From the NCBI GenBank assembly GCA_030141605.1, contig JAQGDQ010000044.1, positions 592,001 through 656,000 on the forward strand: DNA of 64,000 nt, in the 5' to 3' direction. Below are positions 15,927 to 35,083 of the stretch, piece by piece. The translations under genes and the position numbers were made by a program. The stretch is from Tubiluchus corallicola. Taxonomy: Eukaryota; Priapulida; Priapulimorpha; Priapulimorphida; Tubiluchidae. Within the stretch, counting starts at the first letter, position 1. Every line of letters starts with the position of its first letter. The notes under the pieces were generated by a model. It was not told the DNA's origin, made no database searches, and was given only the letters and a program-made list of their open reading frames with translations.

Positions 15927-17105
15927 ATGCAGGGGATAGGTGTTTGCCTGGTATTGGTATTACTGGCAGGACTATCATCTACTGAAACTCAGCCAGGTAA
16001 GTATTAATTTGGTTTCACATTTTAAATACAGTTTGACGTCGGTTAGTTAAATTATTTCGCCATTATTAGGTGTAAGACATTAAGAAAATGAACATATCTG
16101 TATCTCTATAAGTTCAGCAGTTGTTTCACTGATTGTTTGATTGGTTTTTTTCAACATGAAATTTTGACAGCAAATGTCTGGAGAATCTTAATTAACGCTG
16201 GCGCAATTTTTGGCAAATTCTTTTTTTCATTTACGGTTTGTGTGGGATTTTGATAAAAGTAAATCAAATGTTATTGATATGAACCTTTGTTTCCGTGCCT
16301 GTGCCGTTAATGAAACACCATTGTTTAGTAGCCAAATTAGCGATGTTACTATGTTTTAAATGTGTTAATCAGAATTTAACAATCCATTGCGATTCCTTCC
16401 ATCTACGATTAACAGCTATCTGTTGGTGAGCATAAACCGCAATCGTTTGTTAAATTCTTTGTTTTCACACTACAATCAAAGACTAATTATCCAAAACACC
16501 ATATTATGGTTAGGTAATTAGTAATTACAGTAAACAGTTAAGTGTAAGTAAACTAACAGTTCCCTTGGTTGGTGACCTAATATTATGCAATAATGAACGC
16601 TAATCCTAAAGAATTTTAAGATACTTTTCTTTCAACTCTTTTTTTTCATAACTAAACATACATGTTTATCCACTTTTGCTAGCTTCAAGCGGAAAATTAA
16701 TTTTTTTTCTTCCTTTGACTCTAGGTCCTCATAATATTAATTTTAAATACGTAAAGGTTAAATTATTATTAAAAGATAGGCACGTGTGTCTCTTCTTTCC
16801 CATTATTGAACATTATTTTATTATAAACTAACACATTCGTATAACGTTCAATTTTCATTCGTCTTAAATGCAAAATCTGATAATTTTTTATTATCTGATA
16901 CATGCGCATTAACTAATTAATTATATTAGTAACAATTCTGAGAGGGTGGCTGACCTCGATGACTTATAGTTCTTTCGCCACCCTTTCACCACTAATCAAT
17001 AATTACTTTTGCACTTTGTAATGTTGTATTATTGTATGTTGTATAGATTTATAAATCTGTTAGTTATGTATTTTGCTATTTTAAAAATGGTGATAAACTA
17101 ATAAA

Positions 17106-17151
<46 letters not shown>

Positions 17152-20100
17152 TACTCATGGGATTGAATTAAGAACGCCCGCGTTCACACGTGTCTGTGTT
17201 GTCTAGTCATTGGTTTGAATTCCAAAGGTTTCTGGTTCAAATATATTGTGTTCACTTTACCAATAACTGATAATCTCGAATTTAAACTTATAACTAATTA
17301 GCTAATTATTTTATTTAATTACTTTCCAGAAGTTCCAAGTCATCTTCATGACTACGATTCCTACGTGCGGTTCTGCTTTTACCCGGGGGAGGCAGCTCGA
17401 CGTCCCGCGCCAGCCACGTTCTTACCAGAAGACATCGACCCCTCAACTTGCACGCACATCGTGTTTGGATACGCCACAATATTGGATAATGAGCTGACGG
17501 CCAAGTCAGAGTCAGATTTAGGTAAGTTGCTTGTTGCAAAGTGCTTTTGCCAATATGGTGTTATTGTTTACCATCCAAAGAAATTTCTGTGCTCATTGCG
17601 ATGATGATGATGATTATGGCGACGACGACAACGATGATGATTCAGCTTTAAGTAGAACAGACAAACAAAGCTGCAATGAGATTTTTTATTGCCCACGATA
17701 AATTACGAATTACAACTACATAACAGAGATTAGTCACACAGGGCAACTACACGTAGCATTTTTTAATTTTTTTATATGACTGTCTTTCGTATCGAACACG
17801 CAACCTCCTGTACGGAGCTCGGACGTTTTACCTATCAGGCTACGCAGCCACTGTATTTGCCTAAGTGTTTGAAGAGAGACAGTACGACGTGACTATTAAA
17901 CGAATACACAACATTGTCGTTCTGGCTATTGAGATTGCAAGCTGAGGTAAAAAGGTATCGAGGTTTAGGGACTGAAGTCGTGGACACTGGGTAGTGGGTT
18001 TTGAGTTTAAACAGGTACTGTGGGTAGAAATACCAAAAAACGTCAGGTCTATTTTATACACTCCCGAAATACTTTTCAGATTGCACGCAAAGTGTTAAAA
18101 TTACTTGAAGATCACCAGTCGAATATTCATTCACGAAAAAAGGTTTATAAATAGAAGTAAATAAGTATAATCATTTTACTAGTTTTACAATCTGTTCACA
18201 AACCTACTAAATTGACAATATGATAAAAATCATGGTTTTTTGGTTCTTTTCTTAGAGAAGCGGTACGAAATCTCGACTTCACACTTAATCGCATTTAGAT
18301 ATAGATCTAGTAACTAATTTAATCTACAGCCAAAGGGAAGAAATAAAATGAGGTCTGCAACATCTTGATGGCTCTGCTTGTTAAATGGTTTCAGCTTATC
18401 GTAGCCCCGAATGCACCACTCATATTTTACGCCTAGCACACGAACGCAGCGCACCCTGTGCTTAACTCCCCAGCCTGTGGTATCATTGATGACTTTCTTT
18501 TCTGGCTAATTATCACATTGGACACAATTCAATTCAATTCAATAATTTTTTATTTGGCTGATTTGCAACACAAAACATTAAACTATATACGTAATGATAG
18601 CAACAATGCGATAACAAAAACAGGTATGGTTTGAAAATTCTACAGAGTAGGATCGTGAACTTTCCAGACTCACCCCGAGACATGTCTTCTGTTCCTGAAA
18701 TGGTAACTCGCGTAATTTCGTAACTTTGAAGCTCGTAGCTCTAATTTTAAATGCTTTTACTCACTTTCTGCATATAGTATTTTTTAGCACTTCTAGTTTT
18801 AGTCTAGGTAAATTTTAATTGTATGTTTTTGTGGCTTTTATGCTGAAATAAATAGTACAATGAATGGATCAATCATAAATCAATCATTCTGACATGCTCT
18901 TCTCCTCACTTCTTAGCTTAACAAACCCAAATGAGGTTCAGTTTTAGTTATTTCAATGGCAAATAAAAAAAATTGATTTAATTTTGCTTTAATTTTGTTG
19001 CGTTTTTCCAACTTTTTTGTTAAATGATAAAGCACATAAAAATTGACGATATAAAACACATTGAAAAATCCCTGGTAAAGACCTACTTAACAATAACCAA
19101 GGTACACGGTGCAAGAAAGCAACAAACTGAACAAAGACCTGATCAAGTAAAAGTGCATTCAAAGCTGTGGTACAAGGAAAAAACCTAATGAAGCAATGAG
19201 TATTGAAGTAACTTTCCACAAATTTTATATTTTGTCAGAATTTCAAGAGGCCATTTATGCACTTTAACCCATGTCACAAAAATGATGTGTCGCATTCATT
19301 GTTAAACCAAATTTTGAGCTAAACGTTTTTTAAAACATCGTTATTGCATTGTTTAAGACGCTGGTTGGGCTTTAAATTGCTATTTGCAGTAATACCTAAC
19401 TAAAAAATCCGTTTGCACTAACTGTTTCTGTCGAAGCATTTAATAAAATTCTTTTTTAGAATTGTTTCAGAGAATCCTGGCCCTAAAAAACCAAAATCCA
19501 GATCTGAAGGTACTGCTAGCAGTAGGCGGTTGGGCAGAAGGTTCACAGCGTTTCAGCAATATGGCGTGGTCTCTCAACTCACGTCTTACCTTTGTTAATT
19601 CTGTACTTCATTTCCTGAGACAATATGGTTTCGATGGACTAAATGTCGACTGGGAGTTTCCGGGCTACGAACGAAGAGGTGGACATCCTTCAGATAGAGA
19701 CAATTTACCACTGCTCTTAGAGGTATTGATATAAAAATATTAGTAGTATTTGACAGGCTATAACACTCTAACTGCTTTGCTCTTGAAATTCATCTTTTCA
19801 AGCATTTTAAAGCAGGTTGTTAGTTCTGCTAGTTGACCGTCGGTTCTTCGTGTCTATATGGTGTAGTTTTGGCTTGAACAAATTAATGCAAAGTGAGGAC
19901 TCTTCTTACCCAATATCTCTGTGTCAATTTTAAATTTATGTACAATTGTGTGTTTAATTTTTAGGAGCTTCACAAGATCTTTACGATGGAAGCCAAGTTT
20001 TCCGGCAACAATCAACTAATCTTGGCCACCACGATACCGGGCGCTAAATACTGGATAGATTTGGGTTACGACATCCCGAAAATCTCTTCGTGCGTTTATA

Positions 20101-23100
20101 AATACGTTTCTTATTTTTGATGAAAATAATTGGTACTAATAACGCTATTTAAAAGTTGAATTATCAGTGAATGATAAATTATTATGTAGAAGATAACCGC
20201 CCTGCAGGTCAAGTGACTAACCTCAAAATTGTCCTTGAAATCTATCATCTACTACCATTAATCCTTGCAAAGCGCCTTGTGTAAAAAACATCTCTGGTTA
20301 TTTGTGCTCAAAGAGAAAAAGCTTCTCATAATATTCTTGATTTCTAAATGCAGGTTTAGTGATTATTTACCAATGATGACTTATCACCTTAATGGAATAT
20401 GGAACAAACACGCTGGTCATGGAAGTCCTTTGCATCCTCACTCCTACGATGTGGACAAAACTGCGAATATTGTAAGTGAAGAGGTCGCCTTTGAAATATC
20501 TTTGTTTTTAGTAATTTCAGTTAAGTGTAAGACAACTTGGAAAATCACACACAAGCAAGGGCAGCATTTTTGTGTCATGTGTGTGAAAGGGATAAATTAT
20601 TGGAAAATCACGGAAGCACTTTTGAGACTAATAGCTATGAAGATGCGGTATGATCGTTTTCCTTAGATAACCTAGTAATCTTCCATGCCATATAGTGTTC
20701 CTTGGTTTTTAGGGTACTTGGATAACCTAATAATCTTCCATGCCATGTAGTGTTCCTTAGTTTTTAGTGTACTTGGATAACCTAATAATCTTCCATGCCA
20801 TGTAGTGTTCCTTAGTTTTTAGTGTACTTAGATAATCTAATAATCTTCCATGCCATATAATGTTCCTTAGTTTTTAGTGTACTTAGATAACCTAATAATC
20901 TTCCATGCCATGTAGTGTTCCTTAGTTTTTAGGGTACTTAAATAACCTAGTAATCTTTCATGTCATATAGCGTTCCTTAGTTTTTAGTGTACTTAGATAA
21001 TCTAATAATCTTCCATGCCATGTAATGTTCCTTAGTTTTTAGTGTACTTAGATAATCTAATAATCTTCCATGCCATGTAATGTTCCTTAGTTTTTAGCGT
21101 ACTTAGATAATCTAATAATCTTCCATGCCATATAATGTTCTTTAGTTTTTAGTGTACTTAGATAATCTAATAATCTTCCATGCCATGTAGTGTTCCTTAG
21201 TTTTTAGTGTACTTAGATAATCTATTAATCTTCCATGCCATGTAGTGTTGCTTAGTTTTTAGTGTACTTAGATAATCTAATAATCTTCCATGCCATGTAG
21301 TGTTCCTTAGTTTTTAGTGTATTTAGATAATCTAATAATCTTCCATGCCATATAACGTTCCTTAGTTTTTAGTGTACTTAGACAATCTAATAATCTTCCA
21401 TGCCATATAGCGTTCCTTAGTTTTTAGTGTACTTAGATAATTTAATAATCTTCCATGCCATATAGCGTTCCTTAGTTTTTAGTGTACTTAGATAACCTAA
21501 ATCCTATTATCGTTGCTTTTTTTTAAGGAATTCATCGTCCAATATTGGATAAACCATGGAACGGATCCAAAGAAATTGCTGCTGGGAATTCCTCTTTTTG
21601 GACAGACTTACACTCTCCAAGACCCATCTGACCACATGTTAAATGCACCTATTGTAGGAAGTGGCAAGGCTGGACACATGTATCAACAGGAAGGAATGAT
21701 GCCGTACTACGAGGTTTGTGCCCACAAAACTTTGCTTGAGCTTATTCTTATTAAGATTTTCGGCTTCTTGTGGATTGGTAAACACCAATCTTATTACTGC
21801 TTAAGTGATAGATTTAGCCAACTGAACAACTGATAATGCTTCTTGCGAATATTTTTTGAATGACTTACAGATCTACGTCTTCACTCATAATAAATGAATA
21901 AATTACGACAAAATTTGCAGATTATAAAGATTCGCAAATCTGTTTCGGAAAATTCACAAACATTTTAATGGTACCAATGTGCGGCATTTGTCACATTTGC
22001 AAATAAATAAAAATTGTGGTTTATTTCTATTAATTTTAATGACTTGCATTACTTAAATCTTTTGTAGGTGTGTTCTGAAGTGATGCCAAGCTATGAAAGC
22101 TTTTGGGTTGAAGATCAGCTTGTTCCATTTGCTTACAAAAATGACCAATGGATTGGCTACGAGGATTCAAGGAGTATTAGTGAAAAGGTAACAATCCTTT
22201 GCAGTATATTTGGACAAGTTCTAGAACTTCCATCACCAAACTTTCACTAATTTTTTTGTACGTATTGTTGACCACAGTTAGCATTCAACTGGTTACTGAT
22301 CACCAACTTTTGTAATTTTTGCAACGCATTTGCATGTTATCAACGGGCCTCATTTTTCCCTGACTGACAATAGGGTTCGTCTAACTAGTTTTTGTTTGTA
22401 GGTCAAGTATGTGATCGACAATCACCTTGGAGGCGTTATGGTCTGGGCATTAGGTTTTGATGATTTTAAAGGTCATTGTAATCATGGAAGGAATCCTCTG
22501 TTGACCACAATAAAAACAGAATTGCTGGAAGTGACACAGGTGACCTATGTAATCCACACAAAATCTTCAAATGTTTTACAGCAGTTGCCGCACAAGTATG
22601 AAACGGGTGCAGTAGAACCACATTATGCAACATCACATCACGGTGAGACGTACAGGCGTCATACTGTGCAACATCGGCGACACTACGTACAACATGTATC
22701 CCATCAGCAAGAAGGACAACACCCTGTTCATGGATATGATGAGCACCATGCCTACCATGGGCACAGTCGCAGTCGCAGAGTGGAGTCATCATATTCACGG
22801 CACGGGAATTATCACGATGCGTATCCTCATCAAACACAAGGAAGTTACATACCATATCAAGAACACGAAATGATTCCCCACGAAACGTACAATTACGAAA
22901 CATATCCACACAGAGATGCATATGAAGTCTACCCTAGCAACAGCTATCCTTATGACGCTCACAATTATGTAATATATCTGCCGGAGCAGTATGACGTGCA
23001 CCCTCATCAAACACATGAGAATTACGGTGCATATTCAGCACATGGACAGTATGATGATTTCGAAGTACATCCTCGTGAAAGTTCTGAAATATATCCAGTA

Positions 23101-25554
23101 AACGAGCCGCATGCGTACCCTTATGAAAAAAGCAATTATTACGATACTTACCCTGGGTCTGAACTCTATGAAGTTCATCCTTATGAAAGTTATGGTTATG
23201 AAACACACCCTGATGAACTGTATGCTGAACATGGACATTATGAAGGGCATCCTCGTGAAACATACCCTGAACATGGACATTATGAAGGGCATCCTCGTGA
23301 AACATATCCTGAACATGGACATTATGAAGGGCATCCTCGTGAAACATACCCTGAACATGGACATTATGAAGTGCATCCTCGTGAAACATACCCTGAACAT
23401 GGACATTATGAAGTGCATCCTCGTGAAACATACCCTGAACATGGACATTATGAAGTGCATCCTCATGAAACATACCCTGAACATGGACATTATGAAGTGC
23501 ATCCTCGTGAAACATACCCTGAACATGGACACTATGAAGTGCATCCTCATGAAACATACCCTGAACATGGACATTATGAAGTGCATCCTCGTGAAACATA
23601 CCCTGAACATGGACATTATGAAGTGCTTCCTCATGAAACATACCCTGAACATGGACACTATGAAGTGCTTCCTCATGAAACATACCCTGAACATGGACAC
23701 TATGAAGTGCATCCTCATGAAACATACCCTGAACATGGACACTATGAAGTGCATCCTCGTGAAACATACCCTGAACATGGACATTATGAAGTGCATCCTC
23801 GTGAAACATACCCTGAACATGGACATTATGAAGTGCATCCTCATGAAACATACCCTGAACATGGACATTATGAAGTGCATCCTCATGAAACATACCCTGA
23901 ACATGGACATTATGAAGTGCTTCCTCATGAAACATACCCTGAACATGGACACTATGAAGTGCATCCTCATGAAGCGTACCCTGAACATGGACACTATGAA
24001 GTGCTTCCTCATGAAACATACCCTGAACATGGACACTATGAAGTGCATCCTCATGAAACATACCCTGAACATGGACACTATGAAGTGCATCCTCGTGAAA
24101 CATACCCTGAACATGGACATTATGAAGTGCATCCTCGTGAAACATACCCTGAACATGGACATTATGAAGTGCATCCTCATGAAACATACCCTGAACATGG
24201 ACATTATGAAGTGCATCCTCATGAAACATACCCTGAACATGGACATTATGAAGTGCTTCCTCATGAAACATACCCTGAACATGGACACTATGAAGTGCAT
24301 CCTCATGAAACATACCCTGAACATGGACATTATGAAGTGCTTCCTCATGAAACATACCCTGAACATGGACACTATGAAGTGCATCCTCATGAAACATACC
24401 CTGAACATGGACACTATGAAGTGCATCCTCATGAAACGTACCCTGAACATGGACACTATGAAGTTCATCCTAATGAATTATATCCTCATGAAGAGTATCC
24501 TGAACATGGACACTATGAAGTGCATCCTCATGAAACGTATCCTGAACATGGACACTATGAAGTGCATCCTCATGAAGAGTATCCTGAACATGGACACTAT
24601 GAAGTGCATCCTCATGAAACGTATCCTGAACATGGACACTATGAAGTGCATCCTCATGAAACGTACCCTGAACATGGACACTATGAAGTGCATCCTCATG
24701 AAACGTATCCTGAATATGGACACTATGAAGTGCATCCTCATGAAACGTACCCTGAATATGGACACTATGAAGTGCATCCTCATGAAACGTACCCTGAACA
24801 TGGACACTATGAAGTGCATCCTCATGAAACGTACCCTGAACATGGACACTATGAAGTGCATCCTCATGAAACGTACCCTGAACATGGACACTATGAAGTG
24901 CATCCTCATGAAACGTACCCTGAACATGGACACTATGAAGTGCATCCTCATGAAACATACCCTGAACATGGACACGATGCATATGAAAGCTATCCAGGCC
25001 ACTATGATACGTATCCATCACATGTTTCCACAGTTGGTATTCCATTTCCACACCATACAGCTTATTCTTATGAAGGGTATCCTACAAATCAATCCTATGA
25101 ACAATATCCACGTAATACTTACAACGATTATGAATTACCTGGTACTGTTGGACACGAGACATATCCCAGTAATACTCATGGGGGCGAAAGCCTTGGCCCA
25201 GTAGTTGCCCAGGAAGAGCAGAGGCCATATAATCCAGAATTGGAGGAAACAAAACTTTCGGATTCCGGTTCATCTGCTTCTGGAAGAAACGGCGCTGTGG
25301 GAATGGCTACAGAAAGTACGCAATGTGAGGTGAAAGGACCAGGTCCCTCTTGCTCCGGACATTCGCACATGGTAATGGCAAATCCAATAAACTGTCGCAA
25401 GTACTATCTATGTCTGTGGCAGAACACACCCAATGAAATGCGTGTTCCAATGAACTGCCCGGAGGGAACAGTCTTTCATCCATTCAAATACATGTGTGAT
25501 GATAAGGAAAATGTTGATACATCCGTAATATGTAAATGTGGAGAAGAGTCGTGA
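15927..25554 (+). CDS. Secreted GH18 chitinase-like protein with a giant His/Glu/Tyr repeat and C-terminal CBM14
   Basis: Eight coding exons with consistent phases: 15927-15996, 17330-17521, 19460-19722, 19965-20089, 20354-20471, 21528-21713, 22068-22187 and 22402-25554, giving 1,408 residues. The start follows an acceptor by one base and opens a signal peptide (GVCLVLVLLAGLSS). Residues ~35-390 are a GH18 barrel: FLPEDIDPSTCTHIVFGYA, LLAVGGW, FDGLNVDWEFPG, MTYHLNG, LLLGIPLFGQTYTL, GGVMVWALGFDDFKGHC. The DxxDxDxE motif has Asn at the second Asp, and MxYD has His for Asp; the catalytic Glu is kept. A His/Tyr-rich linker and 42 units of YPEHGHYEVHPHET follow, then a CBM14 (peritrophin-A) domain with six cysteines. 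Chitin binding is well supported. Hydrolysis may be weakened. Metal binding by the repeat is inference. Confidence 0.93.
16938..17155 (+). mobile_element. 3' tail of a LINE/SINE-like retroposon ending in (CTTG)n
   Basis: GAGGGTGGCTGACCTCGATGACTT and following sequence ends in an ATAAACTTG microsatellite tail at about 17100-17150. A related GGGGTGGCTGATTCGAT block with a (GATTT)n tail occurs at 48463-48596. Short microsatellite tails are typical of some CR1/L2-like LINEs and their SINEs. It lies in chitinase intron 1. Confidence 0.5.
20664..21495 (+). repeat. 55-bp minisatellite in chitinase intron 5, about 15 copies
   Basis: Units of exactly 55 bp (for example at 20721 and 20776) contain TAATAATCTTCCATGCCAT and GTTCCTTAGTTTTTAGTGTA. 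They fill most of the 1,056-bp intron and stop about 30 bp before the exon 6 acceptor. Confidence 0.95.
23227..24975 (+). repeat. Coding 42-bp tandem repeat (42 units of a 14-residue motif)
   Basis: Within chitinase exon 8. The consensus is YPEHGHYEVHPHET. Variants include HPRET, EVLPHET, EGHPRET, EEYPEHG and two EYGHY units. One five-residue insertion (NELYPHEE region, near 24475-24495) is the only length change, so the frame is strictly preserved. The first part mostly uses ACATACCCT and the last third mostly ACGTA(C/T)CCT, which suggests separate local homogenisation. Each unit carries four His, about three Glu and two Tyr. Confidence 0.98.
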
Positions 25555-26755: not shown

Positions 26756-29087
26756 TTAATAACAATAACATCGTTGGCCACCTACTGGACGATGTAAAGT
26801 GTTATCATGGCGAATCGGACTCGTTGAATATCCATGCTGTCGGTATTTACTGGGATGGCCGTAGCTGTAATCGTCGTTAGCATATCCGCCATTGTGATAA
26901 GTTTTCGTTGATGGATAATCGTAGCCGTAGCCGTCGTAAGAATGGCTTAATATTGGTCGAACTATGTCGTACTTGTATAACGTTTCTGGTTGATAATATT
27001 CATGGCCTTCCCTAGGACAAGAAGCAAAGCATTTAATTATGTTCATCGACTTGTTAATTAAACTATATTAACCCCGATGTATATACTCGGTGTAGCAATA
27101 GATGCATTTCAAAAAAAGAGTTAAAATTCAAGCGAGACCACGTGACTAAAATACACATGCAATCGCTGCAGTTGGGTGTTTAAATAAACTTGTTATTCTT
27201 TATAGTAAAATATTTCGTTAAAATATTTTTATAGTAAAAGAGAAATAAAAAGCGGTTTCTACTGAAAAATTTTCGTATGTCTACGATTTAACTTCTAATA
27301 AAGTCATAACTTACTTTACTGATATTTTGGTAATTGGTTAAAAATATATTAACATAGCTTCTGTTTTAATAAATTTAATAATTTTACGAAGTGCACTGTA
27401 GTGACATCTATTAACGAATAAGTTAATTAATCAGTGTTCTGTGCCCACTGCGAACCTTACAAACTGGTTTTAGGCATGATTGCGTTATCCATCGTTAAAC
27501 AAGAAATTTAATAATCACGATCAAGTGAATTTAAACAAGTGAACAGCTGTTTTAAAAGCAAACAAACTAAGTATGATTTCAGTAACACTTGATTTCAGAC
27601 AATGTTGTTCATATAATTTGCCAGATAATTACTATCAAAACAATTTGTTACTTTTTGGCGCTTGTTAAATTGCAAAACAATATAATAAGTTTCAGCCGTT
27701 TTGAATTATAACTTTAGTTTAGTTTTGTTTAGTTTTGTCTGTATGCTTACTTGTAATCGTAGTCGTAACCTCTAGATTTTGCTGAGGTCTCCTTCGCGTA
27801 GGATTTATCTTGACTAGTCAAAGTTCCGTGAGCCCGACCAGAGCGAGAAAATGAGGTTTCGCTACTTTTCTGCCCATCTCCTTCCAACTTGCCTTTGCTC
27901 ACCGGTCCGTACGTTGTGGTGTGAAAATAAGTTTTTGGAGCTGGTGCTACTTTGTGATAGGCTGCTGTGTTGCCCTTATAGCCGTGTGGAACAGCACCTC
28001 CGGGAGCAAACGCCACATCGTTCCGGTACGATGGCCCACTGGCGCTTACCATGCTAAGTACAGCAACGGCTAGAACGGCAACAAGAATCGTATCCCTGCA
28101 ACGAAAATTTGCATTAGCCTTGTGTTAAGTGCACAGGTAAGAAGTGTATCATCATCATGATCATCGCCGTCGTCTTCATCGTAGTTGCATTCATCATTCG
28201 TCATTATCATCATCAAAACAGCAGCAGCAGCAACAGCAATAGCAACAACGACAACAACAACAACAATTACTTCTACAACTACATTACTATTACTGCTACT
28301 GCTACTAAAACTACAACAATAATTACAACAACAGTAGCATGATTAACAGTAACAACGACGGTAGCATCAGCAACAAGCAACATCAACATTATAACTACCC
28401 GGAACTGGTATTTGCCAGATGATAAAGTTCCCAACTCTTACAAGCATGGGTCTAAATTCAACTTAAAATTTGAAACAAAAACTTTTGCAAAATTTAGATT
28501 TACAGTTTAAGAACGTGGTCCTAATTCTGAATTTTCGCATCTTTTTAACATGTTTATTTAAAAAATCAATTAATTGAATAAGCTTTGAAATCAGTAATGA
28601 GCATAAGTATCCACTTTTTTAAAGAAAATTGCACAAACGTGGATGTAAAAATACGTCAAAAGCTTGTTGTGCGCTTCAGTACTAAGTTCGCACTATAATT
28701 TGCAAATTTTACAAATAAATTTACATTTCATTATTAACAAGAAGATAATATTATTAGATAACATTATTGTAATCCTTTTATAGAATATTTCAATTACAAG
28801 CTGTTATTTCGATACTATTTTTGTAGTTTTAAACTTCAAATCAAACGTTTGCACATTTTTTTTTAAATTGATTATTTATGCTGACTGCTGAATTGAGCAA
28901 ATTAGACTAGACTGCTGATCAAAAATTTTAAACTTGCTAATAAAAAACATTTTCAGAAAATGAATAGGACTCTGTGCATCGTTAATTTATAAAGCTAGCA
29001 ACTAAATGACTTTTTACAGATTTATCAAAATCATTCAAACGTTTACATCAAGTTTTGAAATAAAAAAACAGTTACTCGCACTTACAT
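26756..29087 (-). CDS. Tyrosine-rich secreted protein, 200 residues, start codon split by an intron
   Basis: Three exons on the minus strand: exon 1 ends at 29086, exon 2 is 28095-27751 and exon 3 is 27011-26756. Exon 1 ends CAAAAT before GTAAGTG and exon 2 starts GGATACG after TTGCAG, so the ATG forms only when AT joins G. The product begins MDTILVAVLAVAVLSMVSA, a clear signal peptide, and the mature protein starts near SGPSYRND. The middle is Lys/Ser/Thr-rich; the last 85 residues are rich in Tyr, Gly and His (SYDGYGYDYPSTKTYHNGGY) and end RCYCY. The exon 2/3 junction restores AAG and keeps frame. I know no named family. It resembles cuticular, byssal or shell-matrix proteins that cross-link through tyrosine, which is inference. 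Confidence 0.8.
28150..28345. repeat. Imperfect trinucleotide tract (CAT/CAG/CAA)
   Basis: Low-complexity ATCATC, AGCAGC and ACAACA runs in intron 1 of the Tyr-rich gene. The Asn/Thr-rich reading frame is an artefact. Confidence 0.85.
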
Positions 29088-33014: not shown

Positions 33015-35079
33015 GTAAAACTATGTCACGAAGATTTTGCATATTGTGTTTTTTTGTTCCACATGTGTGCGCCATTTTTGTTCCAGTGGCAAAATTCGAT
33101 TTTATGCGTGATAAACAATTTACAGTTTTAAATAAATCTTTTTGTATTAAATAATTGGAACTTATCCGTGATTGTATTTATATTTTGGTACGGAACTGCC
33201 GGGAAAAGAGACCTTTAGATGAGTATGGCTGAGTGTGATAAAATTAAACACTCTAGAAGTAGATCCAAGGGTTGGGTGAAGACTGGCATAAAATTACTAA
33301 AAGAGGCGATGTCTAGTGAAACGCCTAACTTTGTGTTTGTTCAGCAAAAATTAGAGAACCTTGGAAAATATATTGCCACCTTTAATGAAACAGAAGTGTA
33401 GTTAGAAGATTATTTAGAAGGTGAAGAACTTGAACAAGCGATTATAGAGGCAAGTGAATTAATCAACACAGCGGAATTAATTTCTGCTCAGGCACTAAGT
33501 TTGCTAAAACCAGATTCAAGACCATGTAGTCCTAGTGATTTCCAGCGACATGCAAGTGATAATGATTTTGTCTTGCGACGAGTGAATAACTGTGATTTAG
33601 CACGTAGTGAAAGTGCAGCGAATTTACCAACTAATAATGTAGTCGGTGCAGAAGTCACCAACATAAAACTACCTAAATTGCAACTGCCAACTTTCAGTGG
33701 TGACCCATTGAAGTTTTACGAATTTTGGGACATGTTCGTTGCCTCTGTGGATGCTAAACCTGTACCAGACGTTCATAAACTTGTTTACTTAAAGAGCTTA
33801 CTTAAAGGTGAAGCTGCTCATGTGATAGATGGCCTGCAGCCTGTAGATGGCAATTATAAGGAAGCTGTTTCTTTGTTAAAGGAGAGATTTGGTGATAAAG
33901 ACGCAATCGAGATGTCATTGTTAAAAAAACTGTGGCAGTTAAAGCCCATCACCGATTCGAAAAATATTGAAGCACAAGGAAGTTTTGTAGATGAGCTTGA
34001 AGTTGTTATAAGAGGCCTCAGTGCAATGGGACTTAGTACAGAAGAATTAGGTAAAACCCTAAAACCTCTCTTTCTAGCAAAAATTCCATATGCTTGGCGT
34101 GTTGAATGGGAGTGAATGAGAAGGCGTGAAGATGACAGCGTGAAGATGACACAACATGCTTTGAAAAATTTCGACAGTTCATGAAAAGCGAAGTTGATAT
34201 TAGACGAAAGGCTGCTTCATATACTCGCCATAGAGAGTCTGGTGAATTTAGTCGTCGTGCTGGGTATAAGAATTTAGGTGTGAGGAGCACCCTAGATTCA
34301 GTTTCTCTTCTTCAGTCTAGTGATTTTTGTGGAAACACCAAAAATGCGCCTACAGCTTCAAAGAATTCCCATTGTTTATTTTGTGGCAGAGCTCAACATA
34401 TGTGGCTTGATTGTGCGTCTCTTCCTACTAAGACTTTGCAAGAGCGAAAACAGAAGGTTGCTGAGCAGCACCGTTGTTTTTTGTGTCTTGGTTTAAACCA
34501 CAGAGCTGATACTTGCCGTAAACCTCCATGCAACCGATGTAGTAAATGGCATCATTATTTATTGTGCAATTCAATTGCTGGCTGCTTCCAGGTGAGTCCT
34601 TATGTTAAAAGAGGTTCAAATACTTCTGATGCAAGTGTTGATGTTCCATCAGTTCATTTACAGTCTTTTTGTACGAATGTTGTGTTCTTAATGACTGCGA
34701 CTGCTGTTTTGGAAGATACCAAATCGTCAATTCCTATTCGTGTTTTTATAAATCCTGGTGCCACTACCTCTCTTATTTTGTGTGATGTTGCAGAGCGAGC
34801 AGGTTGCGAAATTATAGGCGAGCGTAATCTTTCGTTAGCTATTATGGGTGGACTTAGCACACCGCAACAGAAATGCCACATTGTTCGTGCTAAACTTCGA
34901 ACAAATACAGGAAAAATTGTGACCTTTAATGCCACCACCCAAGATAAACTAGTGAGACCCTTTCCGGCATGTTCTGAGGGTGATTGGTTAGGAGACTTAA
35001 AGGGCATGATCCTAGGTGACCCAGAGATTCTTTGTGGCAATCCACGAGAAATTCATCTACTGGTTGGTATCCCCCAAAG
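33015..35079 (+). mobile_element. BEL/Pao-type LTR retrotransposon remnant (gag and protease region only)
   Basis: Foreign sequence between two 5S spacer segments. A possible primer-binding site, TGGTACGGAACTGCCGGG, lies at 33186-33203 after an AT-rich, LTR-like lead (about 33015-33184). Two broken reading frames follow, with the DUF1759 gag-like domain, zinc knuckles and a DUF1758 protease-like domain typical of BEL/Pao. Reverse transcriptase, RNase H, integrase and the 3' LTR are absent. The copy is non-functional. Confidence 0.8.
33219..34115 (+). pseudogene. BEL/Pao gag-like ORF (DUF1759), broken
   Basis: A gag-like reading frame with the DUF1759 signature LPKLQLPTFSGDPLKFYEFW and a following helical capsid-like segment. 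An in-frame TAG stands at 33399-33401, and the frame ends at a TGA (34113-34115). Beside the break is a direct duplication of GCGTGAAGATGACA, which may have caused the frame change before the next ORF. Confidence 0.8.
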
Positions 35080-35083
35080 ATGA
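34181..35083 (+). pseudogene. BEL/Pao zinc-knuckle and protease-like (DUF1758) ORF, truncated
   Basis: Contains two CCHC knuckles (CLFCGRAQHMWLDC and CFLCLGLNHRADTC), a Cys/His-rich third segment, and a retropepsin-like domain. The expected catalytic D-S/T-G reads N-P-G in FINPGATTSLI, so the protease active site is lost. The element sequence breaks off at LLVG, where family members continue into the end of the protease and then the polymerase. The next bases are 5S spacer. Confidence 0.8.

Follow-up and report, generated by a model that had tools for sequence, protein, structure and literature searches.

Closest described systems

The stretch of DNA analyzed here (the window; 64,000 nt, positions 592,001–656,000 of contig JAQGDQ010000044.1 in the Tubiluchus corallicola assembly GCA_030141605.1) contains a chitinase-like gene at nt. 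15927–25554 of its forward strand. Its product combines a GH18 barrel, a linker of ~880 a.a. rich in histidine, tyrosine, and glutamate that holds a tandem array of 14-residue units, and a CBM14 domain. In filarial chitinases, an extended region of Ser/Thr-rich 14-residue repeats likewise comes after GH18. CHIT1, AMCase, and the mollusc chitinases, like the protein described here, have a signal-like start, a full GH18 domain, a linker, and one C-terminal CBM14 domain. The T. corallicola protein differs from CHIT1, AMCase, and the mollusc chitinases in its His/Tyr/Glu linker and in the substitutions D136N, D213H, W31E, Y27F, R269Q, and E297Q (CHIT1 numbering throughout). GH18-linker-CBM14 is a common order in secreted chitinases (PMC1945033, PMC9574080); the domain order, of which an earlier reading of the window from its letters alone (the sequence-only reading) knew no description, is thus ordinary, and the linker alone is unusual. 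The GH18 protein OVGP1 likewise continues from GH18 into an extended repeat region, but its repeats are mucin-like (PMC1945033), whereas serine and threonine make up 6.6% of the array here.

Histidine-rich proteins of hard tissues offer the other comparison. In the squid beak, DgHBP works with DgCBP and likewise brings His/Tyr-rich tandem repeats together with chitin, although the HBPs carry GHGxY motifs and form a family separate from the chitin-binding proteins (PMC6884462, PMC9716703), whereas the T. corallicola units are Glu-rich, share one polypeptide with the chitin-binding parts, and lack GHGxY. The nereid jaw proteins Nvjp-1 and Nai11527 are His-rich and are proposed zinc ligands, as the array could be, but Nai11527 is Gly-rich (29% Gly, 16% His; PMC13120676), whereas the 579-residue array is 7.6% Gly and includes 85 Tyr, and the text of the jaw paper makes no mention of chitin, CBM, or chitinase. 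By the definition given there for an Nvjp-1-like His-rich region (eight or more His per 20 residues, or ten consecutive His), no 20-residue stretch here reaches 8, the maximum being 6. Finally, BmorCPR152, one of the His-rich cuticular proteins of Lepidoptera, is cross-linked by laccase2 with catechols; unlike the protein here, it belongs to the insect CPR family and contains 45% His and 2.5% Tyr (PMC8062583).

Gene model and domain layout

Eight exons can be joined in frame across nt. 15927–25554 to encode 1408 a.a., and each of the seven introns in the splice model begins with GT and ends with AG. Exon 1 (nt. 15927–15996) supplies the start codon and a signal-peptide-like part (MQGIGVCLVLVLLAGLSSTETQP...) and ends at a GT donor; judged by eye, this N-terminus resembles a signal peptide. 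Exon 2 (nt. 17330–17521; AG/GT borders, compatible phase) encodes the N-terminal part of GH18, which continues through exon 3 (nt. 19460–19722), which holds the catalytic motif FDGLNVDWEF with asparagine in place of D136, exon 4 (nt. 19965–20089), exon 5 (nt. 20354–20471), where MMTYHLNGIW has histidine in place of D213, exon 6 (nt. 21528–21713), and exon 7 (nt. 22068–22187), with exons 4, 6, and 7 placed by the splice model. Exon 8 (nt. 22402–25554) is a single 1050-codon open frame, which in the alignment to chitotriosidase begins within the last conserved part of GH18, runs through the His/Tyr/Glu domain, and ends with the stop codon past CBM14. All eight exons lie on the forward strand. 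Within intron 5, we noted a 55-base tandem repeat of 15.3 copies (nt. 20662–21500).

Both terminal domains are clear profile matches. GH18 (Pfam PF00704) was found in a scan of the first 631 residues with an E-value of 5.8e-78, covering profile positions 4–317 of 317. CBM14 (peritrophin-A; nt. 25351–25515, forward strand, exon-8 residues 984–1038) was found with an E-value of 9.4e-9 in the entire exon-8 frame and 1e-9 in a 212-residue tail fragment, and its score of 35.7 bits against a cut-off of 22.1 places it in the family. Given that the last GH18 strand, the repeat, and CBM14 share a single 1050-codon exon, we describe one gene model, as the sequence-only reading had proposed from the open frames, and its concern that the GH18 and CBM14 exons might belong to different genes is largely answered by the letters themselves, though exon 8 might still be spliced internally. 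The gene model is very probably both real and unusual.

The His/Tyr/Glu linker

The array (nt. 23221–24975, forward strand) is the top-scoring tandem repeat of the window (Tandem Repeats Finder score 2798). Where 42 in-frame units had been reported, we confirm a tandem array but count 41 full 14-residue units and a partial one from nt. 24958, with an in-frame insertion of five residues (YPHEE, nt. 24481–24495). Exactly YPEHGHYEVHPHET occurs in 19 of the 41 units, YPEHGHYEVHPRET in eight, and YPEHGHYEVLPHET in six, and the units comprise 16 distinct 42-mers. Two consecutive 8-unit blocks (units 11–18 and 19–26; nt. 23641–24312, forward strand) are the same at 334 of 336 bases and are a recent duplication within the array. 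Such recent turnover is what would be seen if the protein were an ordinary secreted chitinase, acting in digestion or remodelling, with a linker minisatellite spread by unequal crossing-over and serving as a mere spacer; chitinase linkers do vary, with 0 to 185 predicted O-glycosylation sites within one insect (PMC9574080).

Composition sets the linker apart from the Ser/Thr-rich type that had been called typical of chitinases. The array (residues 632–1210) contains 145 His, 85 Tyr, and 126 Glu in 579 a.a., with 62 H-x-H pairs and neither lysine nor cysteine, and the wider domain (residues 403–1285) contains 184 His, 133 Tyr, 155 Glu, 65 H-x-H pairs, three Lys, and no Cys. Serine and threonine account for 9.4% of this wider domain, which is therefore not mucin-like. 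In the lead-in to the array (229 a.a., nt. 22534–23220, forward strand), the degenerate motif [YF][ED]x[HY]P, a pattern chosen post hoc from looking at the sequence, occurs seven times (average in shuffled sequences 0.118; none of 5000 shuffles reached seven), and it occurs four times in the 74-residue tail (average 0.044; none of 5000 reached four). As the motif recurs in both flanks, the chemistry reaches beyond the homogenised array, and the linker can be read as a long, old His/Tyr/Glu domain whose middle became homogenised. This continuation of composition and motif into non-tandem sequence argues against a mere minisatellite spacer.

Openness alone is poor proof of coding, since a stop-free 42-base period keeps a frame open, and another forward frame across the repeat is indeed open for 700 a.a. 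We compared the ratio of nonsynonymous to synonymous differences (pN/pS) pairwise among 40 of the 41 units. It was 0.24 in the coding frame and 1.80, 3.59, and 0.76 in the other open frames (the other forward frame and two on the reverse strand, respectively); two stop-containing frames scored almost as low as the coding frame (0.31 and 0.34), so the test lends mild support. The flank motifs are the stronger argument for selected coding.

Charge and phase behavior

With standard pKa values and neighbor effects ignored, the computed charge of one unit is +1.1 at pH 5, +0.2 at pH 5.5, −0.95 at pH 6, and −3.0 at pH 8, and that of the array passes from +36 at pH 5 to −114 at pH 8. The three Glu in each unit account for the value of about −3 at pH 8 and for neutrality near pH 5.5. 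At pH 8, that of seawater if the animal is marine, the protein would thus be strongly acidic.

These values bear on whether the protein forms coacervates in response to pH, as in the squid beak, being stored before it sets within chitin. Its tandem units do hold His and Tyr, and HBP repeats drive phase separation in the beak, where the proteins separate once histidine is uncharged, via His-Tyr contacts in GHGxY (PMC6884462). However, GHGxY is absent from all 1408 a.a., and the unit is neutral near pH 5.5 and carries about −3 at pH 8, whereas HBPs separate upon histidine deprotonation. Coacervation by the squid-beak route, as the sequence-only reading had envisaged, is consequently doubtful, and we regard this account of the protein as distinctly unlikely. 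The charge profile would permit at most a polyampholyte condensate; if condensation occurs, it would likely take place in acidic granules or through a metal bridge.

The GH18 barrel and its pocket

The nearest solved structure to the barrel is chitotriosidase (PDB 1guv, 330 bits). Identity to mammalian chitotriosidases is 37–42% among the matches listed, and the highest identity in the tree set is 43%. In a GH18 tree of 82 rows, selected by taxon from the fetched proteins, the barrel sits on a long branch (1.26) and in no well-supported set.

For the pocket, we used the site roles of CHIT1 and compared 328 BLASTP-aligned stretches, each spanning 300 query residues or more, which came from 203 of 209 fetched relatives. 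E140, D138, Y212, M210, W99, W218, and W358 are conserved, while D136N, D213H, W31E, Y27F, Y141F, Y267F, R269Q, and E297Q are changes. Half of the changed sites are also commonly altered in relatives (R269Q in 65 of 328 stretches, E297Q in 22, Y267F in 22, and Y141F in 103), so that only D136N, D213H, W31E, and Y27F are unusual. Asparagine at D136 occurs in four stretches, glutamate at W31 in five, and phenylalanine at Y27 in three; at D213, which contacts the acetamido group of the substrate, histidine occurs in none (aspartate in 288, asparagine in 33). The D136-D138-E140 triad reads N-D-E here, a state found in two stretches, compared to D-D-E in 262, and the proton donor E140 (residue 153) is present, as in 293 of the 328.

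From this comparison, the pocket is altered at several substrate-contact sites. The barrel may bind chitin while cleaving it little or not at all, and residual or full chitinase activity is possible; with E140 and D138 retained, we do not assert a catalytically dead barrel. An ordinary secreted chitinase would account readily for the retention of E140, D138, W99, W218, W358, and Y212 and for changes as common as R269Q and E297Q. It would account less well for the four rare changes, for the linker flanks, or for the compositions of relatives given below, and we consider it a rather unlikely explanation.

Relatives and copies in the genome

We searched a database of 5.8 billion proteins by a procedure that requires shared exact words, so that relatives that are highly divergent or far shorter would escape it. 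With the whole protein as query, 99 of 5676 candidates reached E ≤0.001, and BLASTP alignments covered 11–29% of it, a span roughly equal to the barrel or smaller; the first 502 residues returned 224 relatives, 120 of them listed. Among the 209 relatives listed, a single one reaches 15% His over 100 consecutive residues; it is a protein predicted from a fish and has low-complexity Asn/His sequence (22% His, against 11% in the next highest relative). This scarcity of His is further evidence against an ordinary chitinase. No 5-mer of the consensus unit was present in any of the 209. Of the 3751 word-sharing candidates (~578–1838 a.a.) retrieved with the His-rich region as query (exon-8 residues 44–960), none reached E ≤0.001. 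Nor did the open-licence papers listed in literature searches, judged by title and the start of the abstract, include a chitinase with a His-rich repeat; one paper matching "histidine-rich repeat" concerned zinc transporters. The type of linker therefore appears to be new, while GH18-linker-CBM14 is the ordinary layout of secreted chitinases.

The genome assembly comprises 343.5 Mb in 2344 contigs, and the GH18 exons of the chitinase-like gene occur on 13 of these (C2, C14, C457, C628, C1781, C1850, C2066, C2159, C2185, C2200, C2228, C2254, and C2271), three of them at identical coordinates. Upon re-reading, exon 8 was identical in 12 of the 12 other contigs, and we accordingly rejected separate gene copies in favor of a redundant assembly, whose total size probably overstates the genome. 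As the 12 other contigs are redundant, they provide no independent check on copy number. This redundancy also lends some weight to an artefact, in which the repeat was misjoined or inflated during assembly or separate genes were run together. Yet the units vary (16 types among 41), their variants are clustered by position, and the GH18 end and CBM14 lie within the same open frame. An artefact of this kind is highly improbable, though the number of units may be wrong in the assembly.

A six-unit query against the genome gave, outside the 13-contig locus, only three weak matches, all on contig C1692 (150 of 370 candidates scored); these carry five to six stops each and were not accepted as a second family member. 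CBM14 gave 61 match rows in the genome, of which 13 are copies of the chitinase-like gene, and a profile of our own, built from fetched proteins, found no further CBM14 in the surrounding 164 kb. Contig C2284 carries a single-exon GH18 gene (L001 1246–2556, 436 a.a.) in which DGLDLDWEF is intact. Of ten other GH18 loci in the genome, one matched none of the fetched proteins, and the rest matched proteins of molluscs, priapulids, annelids, and insects, no group standing out as the best. Families of molluscan haemocyanin and of annelid haemoglobin linkers had no match in the genome, but neither did their controls.

Putative function

We favor, with a probability of roughly 0.5, a matrix protein that would be secreted and anchored to chitin and in which catechols or metal would cross-link the His/Tyr/Glu linker; tissue, secretion, disorder, chitin binding, and cross-linking are each properties that we infer. 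In such a protein, the GH18 barrel and the C-terminal CBM14 would, going by their families, grip chitin at both ends, and the ~880-residue domain between them, if unfolded, would act as a many-site cross-linker. Its His and Tyr could form catechol/quinone adducts as nucleophiles or bind Zn and Cu as ligands, and they would be the main covalent sites, since the linker has no Cys and nearly no Lys; near pH 8, Glu and neutral His could bind Ca or transition metals. A chitin-anchored scaffold had likewise been proposed by the sequence-only reading, and it holds insofar as there is one gene model, likely secretion as judged by eye, and a chitin-binding module by family. The array composition also suits the metal and tyrosine chemistry proposed with it, although binding and cross-linking themselves we still only infer. 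Also in favor of a matrix protein are the motifs flanking the array, the pN/pS of 0.24 in its coding frame, the altered GH18 pocket, the many CBM14 matches in the genome, and the Tyr-rich and Gly/Tyr-rich compositions of two neighboring, secreted-looking genes.

Tentatively, and with less confidence, we suggest a further step, in which a chitinase gene became a one-chain chitin cross-linker. It would combine a barrel turned by its pocket changes into a lectin-like, chitin-holding head with a metal- and catechol-reactive polyampholyte linker whose charge flips between the pH of acidic granules and pH 8. The squid beak divides these tasks between two protein families, and T. corallicola would have united them independently.

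Precedents for the separate elements exist. The 45%-His cuticular protein is cross-linked by laccase2 with N-acetyldopamine (NADA) or N-β-alanyldopamine (NBAD) (PMC8062583), and squid beak, with its DgCBP and DgHBP families, contains cross-links described as dopa-His and later as His-4-methylcatechol (PMC9716703). In the Nereis jaw, a His-rich protein has been put forward as a Zn binder (PMC13120676). Chitinase-like proteins occur in structural settings as well, with five in the nacre of the mussel Mytilus (PMC4517812) and an AMCase among the highly expressed genes of a tubeworm's tube-making collar (PMC8476170). Chitinase transcripts in the limpet radula were interpreted by their authors as chitin remodelling (PMC9263180), which would fit an ordinary chitinase too. 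These are other proteins in other animals and bear on the T. corallicola protein by analogy rather than as evidence.

Several observations weigh against a cross-linkable matrix protein. The retained catalytic E140 and D138 are compatible with chitinase activity; the two stop-containing frames have pN/pS values near that of the coding frame; the array was not seen in any second species in the protein database searches; and a Tyr-rich neighboring gene (nt. 26756–28124, see below) was missed by our composition scan of 164 kb.

If the favored reading is true, the gene would place in one chain what squid beaks distribute over separate proteins to meet the same materials problem, namely chitin grip plus a dense His/Tyr/Glu cross-linking segment. 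It would also represent a chitin-degrading enzyme fold co-opted for structure, with the pocket residues concerned identified. The unit YPEHGHYEVHPHET is short and free of Cys and Lys, with a predicted sharp pH-dependent charge switch.

Neighboring features in the window

The chitinase-like gene is followed, 1.2 kb past its end, by a convergent gene on the reverse strand that encodes a Tyr-rich, secreted-looking protein in two frames (nt. 28124–27747 and 27067–26756). Its 180 residues, spliced by eye, contain 13.9% Tyr and end in CYCY; no first exon was identified for it, and the first of the two frames, the sole one scanned, gave no Pfam match. Further downstream, a two-exon gene on the reverse strand (nt. 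39653–38702) has a signal-like start and a Gly/Tyr-rich mature part of 84 a.a. (52.4% Gly, 22.6% Tyr), with no Pfam family. A scan of 164 kb for frames rich in His, Tyr, and Gly flagged the array, this Gly/Tyr-rich gene, and simple repeats. A cluster of structural genes is thereby suggested, but tentatively, because the scan skipped the Tyr-rich neighbor.

A further alternative is a protein that binds chitin in the gut lining (peritrophic), in mucus, or in immunity and whose His-rich part would sequester metal. CBM14 is the peritrophin-A domain, and metals are bound by a His-rich glycoprotein from the blood of mussels, according to a title in the reference list of PMC9263180. Nothing specific speaks against such a role, but both neighbors look structural by composition, and we consider it very unlikely.

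The window also contains features apart from these genes. Six frames on both strands between nt. 47710 and 60356 match cytochrome P450 in Pfam and are probably several P450 genes, and a C-type lectin exon (Pfam) lies beyond the neighbors of the chitinase-like gene. Seven 5S rRNA matches are scattered over both strands between nt. 31306 and 45529, with scores of 40.4 to 113.5 bits. At nt. 33402–35083, two long open reading frames resemble retrotransposon gag/protease by eye; the second, the one scanned, is without a Pfam match.

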